Shown here piece after piece: positions 19,986-60,875 of a DNA stretch of 64,000 nt. Every line of letters starts with the position of its first letter. Positions within the stretch are counted from its first letter, which is position 1. The DNA is from Candidatus Peribacteria bacterium. GTDB taxonomy: Bacteria; Patescibacteriota; Gracilibacteria; Peribacterales; Peribacteraceae. The DNA lies in NCBI GenBank assembly GCA_028286915.1, contig JAQBQQ010000006.1, positions 1 to 64,000 of the forward strand, in the 5' to 3' direction. The position numbers were made by a program, and so were the translations under genes. Under the pieces are notes generated by a model. It searched no databases. It saw only the letters and a list, made by a program, of their open reading frames with translations, and was not told the DNA's origin.

Positions 19986-20014
19986 TTGAAAGGTGTACGA
20001 AAGTACACTATGCT
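19986..20014 (+). promoter_or_regulatory. Promoter with embedded palindromic operator
   Basis: TTGAAA-17 nt-TATGCT; spacer contains GGTGTAC-gaaa-GTACAC. Confidence 0.7.
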
Positions 20015-20046: not shown

Positions 20047-20649
20047 ATGAACTTCGATAAGCTCAAAGAACAATTTTCAGCCGAGGATGTTGAGTGGCGC
20101 ATTGGCCGGGCGGGCTATACATTCAATGGAAAGTTGTATGCTACGGCGCTGGCATATATAACAAACCGCGCCATTATGAATCGCCTGGACCAGGTGTGCG
20201 GACCGGAAAACTGGCGTAACGAATTCCGCGAATGGCATGTGGGAAGCAGACACGGCGTACTCTGCGGTCTTTCCATTCGTATTAACAATGAATGGGTGAC
20301 TAAGTGGGATGCAGCCGAGAATACGGATATTGAACCTGTTAAAGGTGGCATCTCCGATTCCATGAAACGGGCCGGCGTACAATGGGGCATTGGCCGCTAC
20401 CTGTATGATCTAACCGAAGGTTTTGCCATTATTCAATCCGATGGACAGTACTACGCGCAGGGGAAAGATAAATTATCCGGTAAAGAGTATCGCTTCCGCT
20501 GGAATGCACCGCAATTGCCGGAGTGGGCTCTGCCAAAAGCCAAGTTTATTGCGGCAACTGCCAAAGTGCGTTCGCCACGGAAGAAAATTATAAAAGATCC
20601 TGCCGTACAGAATAAAGCCATAGAACAGGAGCCAGTCGCAAAGAGCTAG
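20047..20649 (+). CDS. Rad52/Rad22-like DNA repair protein
   Basis: YITNRAIMNRLDQVCGPENWRNEF..., DAAENTDIEPVKGGISDSMKRAGVQWGIGRYLYDL. Confidence 0.88.
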   Translation: MNFDKLKEQFSAEDVEWRIGRAGYTFNGKLYATALAYITNRAIMNRLDQVCGPENWRNEFREWHVGSRHGVLCGLSIRINNEWVTKWDAAENTDIEPVKGGISDSMKRAGVQWGIGRYLYDLTEGFAIIQSDGQYYAQGKDKLSGKEYRFRWNAPQLPEWALPKAKFIAATAKVRSPRKKIIKDPAVQNKAIEQEPVAKS

Positions 20650-58711: not shown

Positions 58712-60841
58712 CTACACCGTCTCCATGGGGTCTACATCTATAATCACCTCATCAAGATTCAGTCCTTCCAAAGCTTTTTTCGTTGCAGTTCCGCGCAGCA
58801 GAATATGCCATTCGCGGCCGCCGCCAAAAAATGTTGGCGCGCATTTGGCAGTGACATGCAGGCCGAGTGCATCAATATTTTTCTGTAACGTAACCGTAAA
58901 AGAGCGGGCCCGGCCGGCCGGGTCATTATCGCGCACAATGAGCCGGAGCATTTCGGTTGTCGGCGGATAGTTGGTATACGCCCGCAATTTAAGCTCCTGA
59001 TCCAGATACTGTTCTGTTTCATGCCTGGATGCCGCCAGAATTTCCGGCGCATTGGGCCGGAAGGTCTGAATGATCACTTCGCCCTGCTTGGCACGGCCAC
59101 TCCGGCCCGTAAGCTGGGTAAGAAGCTGGAAAATGCGCTCGCCGGCGCGGAAATGCGGAAGGGACAGGCCAACATCCGCCAGTACCACGGCTGCCAGCGT
59201 GACATTCGGTAAGTCCAGCCCTTTCACTACCGACTGCGTGCCAAGAAGAATATCGGCTCTGCCTTCGCGCATGGCGGATAACATTTCCCTCATCTGGTCC
59301 GGGTGAGACATGGTATCGGCATCTGCCCGCAGCAACCGTGCCTGTGGAAATTTTTTTCCAAGAATATGTTCCACTTTTTGCGTACCGGCTCCGACAGCCA
59401 ATAGTTTCGTGCTGTCACAGTGCGGACAACGGGCGGGCAGCGCCGCTGTAAGTCCCGACGTATGATCCATGAGAAATGGTTTGCCGCCGTGCGTCTGGTG
59501 AACGGTAAACGGCAGTAACGACTCCGGCGACACCACGCGCCTCCTGCACTCCAGACACAGAAGCGACGTGGCAACACCGCGTCTGTTAAGAAACAGCACC
59601 ACCTGTTCCTTTTTGCGTAATTTCGCTTCAATGGCGTCGAGTAAAGGTGGAGAAAACGGGTACATGGAGCCAAAATCTACATCAGCCAAATCGATAATCC
59701 GCACATCCGGCATTGCCTGGTCTTTGTAGCGCATGGGTAGCCGCTCCATTTGATAGCGCCCGTCCTTGGCCCGTACCCACGCTTCCATAGACGGCGTGGC
59801 GGTTCCCAGAACAAGCTTGGCACCCGAAAATCTACAGAGTGTCTCGGCCGTGTCGCGTGCGTGGTAGCGCGGCGTCTGCTCATTTTTGAATGTCCATTCA
59901 TGCTCTTCGTCAATAATAACAAGACCAAGGTGTGGCATGGGTGCAAACAGCGCGCTGCGTGAGCCAAGTACCATGGCAATATCGCCCCGGCGGATGCGCT
60001 TCCACAAAACCAGACGGGCTGCCGGTGTAAGCCGGCTGTGCAGCACGGCAATGGACTTGCGGTTTAATAACGTTTCATAGCGGTGAATGCTGTGTTCGGT
60101 AAGCAAGATCTCCGGAACCAGCACAATAGCCTGCTTGCCGGCGCGGATGGTGTCCACAATCATTTGGGCATAGATCTCCGTTTTTCCGCTGCCCGTCACG
60201 CCAAACAGAAGTGACGGCCGCGGATCCCGCGACATGGAATCTGCCACTTGCTGCTGCGCGGACGTAAGAACAGGCAGTCCTTTTACATGATCCAGGTGAG
60301 CCGTGCCATCCGCGGCAACGGTTTGCAATTCTTCTTCCACAATCCGCTTTTCCAGAAGCGCATTCATGTGTGTTTTCGTTACCTCCAGCTCACGTTTCAG
60401 CTCTTCGGCCGACACCCAGTCCCGGCCCTGCAGATATTCCATAATGGCAACCTGTTTTTTGCCGCGCACCAGACTCATATCGCCATTCAAGACCCTGTAT
60501 CCTGCTTTGCGATCCGGAAGAAAGCGTGCCCACGGCGGAGAAGGAAGCCACGGAGCCAGTGCCTGCCGTAAAGTTGTAAGGTAATGATCCGCCATCCATT
60601 GGGCGGTTTGTAATTGCGCTTCGGCCAATAATGGCTGGCGGCTCAGCACTTCTTCCACTTGTTTCACGTCGTATTCGGAGTCATTGGTCTGCATTAGTTC
60701 CACTACCAGACCTTCCGTCAATTTTGAGCGCAATGGCACGCGCACCAGGTCACCAATGCGCACTTCGTGGCTGCCAGTCTCGTATGTAAGACCGTTCCCG
60801 ATACCGCCGGAACGCGATGCCGTAATCACTTTGCAATACAT
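58712..60841 (-). CDS. priA: Primosomal replication protein N' (PriA helicase)
   Basis: LLFGVTGSGKTEIYAQMI, IIDEEHEWTFKNEQTPRYHARD, LFLNRRGVATSLLC, Zn-binding Cys pairs; start placed at MYCKVITASR. Confidence 0.96.
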   Translation of the reverse strand: MYCKVITASRSGGIGNGLTYETGSHEVRIGDLVRVPLRSKLTEGLVVELMQTNDSEYDVKQVEEVLSRQPLLAEAQLQTAQWMADHYLTTLRQALAPWLPSPPWARFLPDRKAGYRVLNGDMSLVRGKKQVAIMEYLQGRDWVSAEELKRELEVTKTHMNALLEKRIVEEELQTVAADGTAHLDHVKGLPVLTSAQQQVADSMSRDPRPSLLFGVTGSGKTEIYAQMIVDTIRAGKQAIVLVPEILLTEHSIHRYETLLNRKSIAVLHSRLTPAARLVLWKRIRRGDIAMVLGSRSALFAPMPHLGLVIIDEEHEWTFKNEQTPRYHARDTAETLCRFSGAKLVLGTATPSMEAWVRAKDGRYQMERLPMRYKDQAMPDVRIIDLADVDFGSMYPFSPPLLDAIEAKLRKKEQVVLFLNRRGVATSLLCLECRRRVVSPESLLPFTVHQTHGGKPFLMDHTSGLTAALPARCPHCDSTKLLAVGAGTQKVEHILGKKFPQARLLRADADTMSHPDQMREMLSAMREGRADILLGTQSVVKGLDLPNVTLAAVVLADVGLSLPHFRAGERIFQLLTQLTGRSGRAKQGEVIIQTFRPNAPEILAASRHETEQYLDQELKLRAYTNYPPTTEMLRLIVRDNDPAGRARSFTVTLQKNIDALGLHVTAKCAPTFFGGGREWHILLRGTATKKALEGLNLDEVIIDVDPMETV

Positions 60842-60857
60842 GACCGGAGTATAACAT

Positions 60858-60875
60858 GGTGTACTTTGGTACACC
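60858..60875. promoter_or_regulatory. Palindromic operator in priA divergent promoter region
   Basis: GGTGTAC-tttg-GTACACC, matching GGTGTAC-N4-GTACAC at 19992-20008. Confidence 0.65.

Follow-up and report, generated by a model that had tools for sequence, protein, structure and literature searches.

The analysed window (the whole 64,000-nucleotide stretch, contig 25 in a 48-contig genome of 1,434,601 bases) contains a gene for a predicted Erf-type phage single-strand annealing protein, with a palindrome lying between two promoter-like hexamers upstream of it:

19986 to 19991, plus strand: -35-like hexamer TTGAAA, resembling the TTGACN that stands before the box in Peribacterial lexA promoters
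19993 to 20008, plus strand: putative LexA box GTGTACGAAAGTACAC, 22.7 bits, a 16-mer found also upstream of comM
20009 to 20014, plus strand: -10-like hexamer TATGCT, at a spacing of 17 nt from the -35-like hexamer
20047 to 20649, plus strand: erf, Erf-type (Rad52-superfamily) single-strand annealing protein, 200 aa (phrog_1097, PF04098)

A single base (g at 19992) separates TTGAAA from the box, and the 17-nt spacer is filled by a GTGTAC-N4-GTACAC dyad, just as the first-pass annotation had read it. The hexamers match the promoter consensus at five of six positions (-35-like) and four of six (-10-like); these are ordinary matches, by themselves not above chance for so short a region. The gene begins with the ATG at 20047, and its earlier label, "Rad52-like," is right at the level of the superfamily (PF04098 Rad52_Rad22, E 7.5e-19, over the cut-off). 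Residues 1-176 match phrog_1097, Erf-like ssDNA annealing protein, with an E value of 2e-70, and among phage proteins the best matches are Erf proteins of the P22-like kind, which share about 53% identity with it across 96% of its length.

A second copy of the palindrome, GGTGTACTTTGGTACACC with its flanking bases (60858-60875), lies near a replication-restart gene:

58712 to 60841, minus strand: priA, replication-restart helicase, 709 aa from the ATG at 60841 (TIGR00595 over the cut-off; PF17764)
60859 to 60874, minus strand: putative LexA box GTGTACCAAAGTACAC, 18.4 bits, just upstream of the priA start

Counted on the minus strand from the box core at 60859, the distance to the probable ATG at 60841 is 17 bp. 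An exact search for GTGTAC-N4-GTACAC finds these two sites and no others in the 64 kb, as had been claimed, and the accompanying chance estimate of 0.004 for one copy is also correct. With up to two mismatches allowed, the window holds five matches against 0.93 expected, a number that no shuffle reached. Pattern searches of the whole genome give four exact palindromes and none for a reversed-pattern control; at up to two mismatches the palindrome has 42 sites and the control 31, and this looser set was discarded as mostly noise. Using a symmetric scoring matrix trained on boxes of other genomes (50 from lexA and 46 from recA), the third-best site in the window, after erf and priA, reaches 9.2 bits, and an independent-base model predicts 0.024 sites of at least 18.4 bits and 0.001 of at least 22.6 bits per 64 kb. 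Small counts in one window are all that would speak for chance palindromes; across 36 family genomes, 35 of which have the exact palindrome, it occurs at 101 sites against 4 for the control pattern. These counts, the conservation of boxes at recA and lexA and the placement upstream of repair genes led us to reject a chance origin, whose probability is negligible.

Although the window holds no lexA gene, a LexA-type regulator had been proposed for the palindrome, and the genome does encode a canonical LexA:

contig C40, 14095 to 14697: lexA (PF01726, PF00717 and the TIGR00498 equivalog, over cut-off)

Over its full length the protein aligns with LexA proteins of solved structure. It is 68-79% identical to the products of 37 LexA loci, the majority of which carry the label Candidatus Peribacteria or Peregrinibacteria, and this places the metagenome-assembled genome in the Peribacteria, a group of the Patescibacteria. 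The Ala88-Gly89 cleavage site is shared without exception by 38 Peribacterial LexA proteins, as are the catalytic residues Ser124 and Lys161. In this genome lexA is followed at a short distance by a gene for a Y-family polymerase (PF00817). Labels of other kinds also occur among the 37 loci ("Gastranaerophilales" for L271, "bacterium" for L254 and L278); L271 (JAQUYY010000243.1) has a Peribacterial lexA at 70% identity and a Peribacterial box and is probably misbinned. No LexA was detected in one relative, G002 (97% complete), though boxes are present, including one at recA; an assembly gap may account for this.

The same class of box stands in the lexA promoter itself. In this genome the promoter reads TTGACA-GTGCACAAACGTCCACC-TACTAT, with the box inside the spacer as at erf; the two lexA boxes are GTGCACAAACGTCCAC and GTGAACGATTGTTCCC, the latter just downstream of the box between -35 and -10. 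Across the family, 35 of the 37 named Peribacterial lexA loci have a GTGNAC-N4-GTNCAC box (at most one mismatch) in the -35/-10 spacer, in the pattern TTGACN-GTGNACNNNNGTNCACC-TANNNT. Under the same mismatch criterion, a single box or a pair stands at recA in 28 of 30 genera, of the GGTGTAC-N4-RTACACC type and, where paired, commonly about 80 bp apart; in one of the two exceptions (G010), the gene for a small protein, with a box of its own, lies directly upstream of recA. The family-wide consensus is GTGNAC-N4-GTNCAC. Given a LexA in the genome, the same box class in its promoter and boxes kept at both lexA and recA, the SOS-like reading offered in the first-pass annotation is supported: we put at about 0.92 the probability that the palindrome in the erf promoter is the LexA operator, or LexA box, of Ca. 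Peribacteria.

Palindromes of the form GGTGA-N8-TCACC lie between TTGAC and the -10 of lexA in some class relatives and others (G038, locus L077; G047, locus L076; L285, L287, L291). Having the same geometry and an altered core, they are possibly a record of LexA-box evolution.

Another dimeric repressor, of a competence or phage type, might instead bind the palindrome, with comM, erf and priA forming a separate regulon. The commonest target of the exact palindrome is the competence-linked comM, and count matrices show recA boxes to be mostly GTGTAC/RTACAC and lexA boxes to vary at position 4, two points in favor of this reading. The exact palindrome, however, also occurs in lexA promoters of several genera (L246, L253, L263, L264, L271 and G014; that of L263 reads TTGACA-GTGTACGATTGTACACC-TATCAT) and at recA (L146, L158), so that one motif covers both sets and a separate competence regulon is unneeded; nor is any of the ORFs around erf phage-like. 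A second repressor is thus very improbable.

The family-wide survey examined 75 sites: 70 of the 101 exact ones, fetched with their flanks, together with the 4 in this genome and a lexA locus. Of these, 61 fall close to the beginning of a recognised gene, in the interval from -40 to +350 bp, a share that is partly a product of construction because some reference genes were chosen as recurring next to boxes; the claim of enrichment is based on the control pattern and on what was found at lexA, recA and the small-protein gene. With that proviso, the enrichment at promoters and repair genes that had been anticipated for a true regulon is borne out, the sites lying upstream of a limited set of genes. 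Besides comM/yifB, these are the small protein (17 sites), a DNA methylase and a four-helix-bundle protein (4 each), a LAGLIDADG-like protein (3), priA, a RhuM-like protein, ssb, recA and lexA (2 each), and, once each, erf, a Y-family polymerase, recG and a family of surface proteins (ssb, too, lies 65 bp from that site). Box scores in this genome are 21.9 bits at comM, 20.8 and 17.4 at recA, 19.7 and 16.1 at lexA, 21.2 at the small protein, 20.7 at ssb, 19.7 at rmuC and 17.4 at recG.

Some members of this list invite comment in their own right. The gene most often found behind the exact palindrome encodes the competence-linked helicase ComM/YifB (19 of the 75 sites; L002, L118, L124, L130, L156, L182 and others), and the 16-mer of the erf box is identical to the comM box in seven sister genera. 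A 19.2-bit box of LexA type at C5:16207-16222 in this genome lies upstream of argS, for arginyl-tRNA synthetase (L011), and may be chance or real. Exact palindromes in relatives also precede genes that look like parts of mobile elements or defense systems, here named from sequence motifs, which suggests SOS-responsive mobile elements:

L150, L154, L161: palindrome before a LAGLIDADG-like gene
L162, L117: palindrome before a RhuM-like gene
L164, L165, L178: palindrome before a BRO-like gene
L115, L131, L152: palindrome before a DNA methylase gene

The small protein is a family of 65-115 aa with the core VxIDW...LLxWVxxxPxxxxIHVYLPS...RRLQxxLQxLGCTVT and no match in Pfam:

C7:27474-27782, minus strand: small protein in this genome (L001/L328; relatives at L326-L352)

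A profile built from seven box-adjacent copies detects the family in 26 of 36 genomes, and a box of at least 16 bits stands just upstream of 26 of the 27 copies. The independent test, restricted to genes outside the profile set and located by protein homology alone, gives a box of at least 16 bits for 19 of 20. In two genomes (G010 and G017) the gene stands just upstream of recA. A STAS-type anti-sigma antagonist was considered and rejected, the resemblance being weak (E 0.011). For its role, a damage-response effector is the obvious guess.

The origin of erf itself is a different question from that of its regulation. No match to it was found in 58 relatives, and a search of 288 genomes of the class (287 relatives and this one) returned no full orthologue, only the gene itself and one short fragment on a phage-like contig. 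Because relatives lack orthologues and the closest homologues are phage Erf proteins, horizontal acquisition is most likely. With no orthologue in class relatives, LexA control of the gene would be local to this lineage. The box may have been gained after the gene arrived or brought by a Peribacterial phage. The second course can be taken further: such a phage could have placed its recombinase under host LexA, leaving a remnant here and not a domesticated repair gene. Phage Erf proteins as closest homologues and the absence of the gene from relatives are consistent with that history. Against it, the 200 bp upstream of 28 viral erf homologues, none of them from viruses known to infect Peribacteria, contain no such box (the best have at least three mismatches), and the neighbors of erf look chromosomal (a polysaccharide deacetylase, a MarR-like regulator, a short-chain dehydrogenase and an O-antigen ligase-like protein, named from sequence motifs), with no phage-like gene seen among the surrounding ORFs. 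A phage remnant seems the less probable history, though a serious one, and it would change where the box came from, not what the box does.

For priA, an alternative lies in the DNA itself. Read on the plus strand, the palindrome is TGGTGTAC-TTTG-GTACACCA followed by AATTTTTT, a hairpin with a T-run that a scan calls terminator-like, and it might therefore end transcription and not serve as an operator. No plus-strand gene is evident before the hairpin, however, the region being antisense to priA; the full 16-base LexA pattern is present; and in two other genera (G013 and G035) a box is kept no more than 50 bp ahead of priA, with no T-run. A terminator is accordingly improbable. The priA box occurs in three of the 23 genera with a PriA match: this genome (G000), G035 (exact) and G013 (one mismatch); it is absent in the 20 others. 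With a LexA box as the preferred reading of this site too, priA is a candidate lineage-specific member of the SOS regulon, less certain than erf.

Comparison with other bacteria places the Peribacterial system within a familiar frame. As in the known LexA/SOS regulon (lexA, recA, dinB/umuC, ssb, rmuC, recG), LexA joins a helix-turn-helix to an S24 domain with the catalytic residues, its promoter is predicted to be autoregulated, recA has a box, and promoters may hold several boxes. Departures from that regulon are the box itself, GTGNAC-N4-GTNCAC, and the putative addition of comM, the small protein and, here, a phage-type Erf and PriA.

The Gram-positive LexA box is GAAC-N4-GTTC and the cyanobacterial box RGTAC-N3-DGTWC. 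The Peribacterial box shares their half-site spacing and AC-N4-GT core, and the erf box fits GTAC-N4-GTWC; it differs in its fixed outer GT...AC bases and in leaving position 4 free in each half. The cyanobacterial resemblance noted in the first-pass annotation thus stands for the core, GTAC-N4-GTAC, but not for the flanks R and B of the full RGTAC-N3-DGTWCB, where erf has T and A. Boxes of the form GGTGTAC-N4-GTACA, as in Peribacteria, also stand in lexA promoters of Calditrichota (L288, L289, L295, L298) and Doudnabacterium (L292), although the right half there ends in T or A, not C, and in Calditrichota the box sits elsewhere with respect to the promoter. The box type therefore appears to be wider than one family. 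The Erf protein, at about half identity to its P22 counterparts, is here the product of a stand-alone chromosomal gene under a putative host LexA box, and, unlike in phage P22, neither a gene for the Arf cofactor nor any other phage gene is evident in its vicinity.

For the Patescibacteria superphylum, a DNA-damage network under LexA control has already been reported (Sanchez-Osuna et al. 2017, doi 10.1111/1462-2920.13826, as cited in PMC8565304 and PMC7739468). Among the papers searched, none deals with LexA in Peribacteria or in Peregrinibacteria.

The position of the box, together with the catalytic residues of LexA and the conservation at lexA and recA, allows a mechanism to be envisioned from sequence. 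A LexA dimer on GTGTACGAAAGTACAC, inside the -35/-10 spacer, would shut RNA polymerase out of the erf promoter. Upon DNA damage, RecA filaments would trigger self-cleavage of LexA at Ala88-Gly89 by the Ser124/Lys161 dyad, freeing the promoter so that the annealing protein could be made, alongside RecA, LexA, the Y-family polymerase, ComM, RecG, RmuC, Ssb and, in this lineage, PriA. Binding, repression and induction are what we infer from operator and regulator; that Erf then works in repair of the host chromosome is likewise conjectural. If the erf box is a LexA site, a virus-type repair gene seems to have been wired into the damage response of the cell itself.

More broadly, the Peribacterial SOS regulon may have its own type of LexA box and, among its most tightly LexA-controlled members, a previously undescribed small protein that is a possible clade-specific damage-response effector (for example, a division-arrest factor), with individual lineages plugging in annealing proteins such as a captured phage Erf; we regard the odds on this wider picture as even. 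The case also illustrates that the layout of an operator in bare sequence can be enough to propose a regulator, which genome comparison can then confirm. It gives these uncultured, ultra-small Patescibacteria a LexA box open to testing and a first outline of the SOS regulon of one family. It also places a phage-type recombinase under an apparent host damage switch and draws attention to a family of small proteins whose genes nearly always have a putative LexA box.
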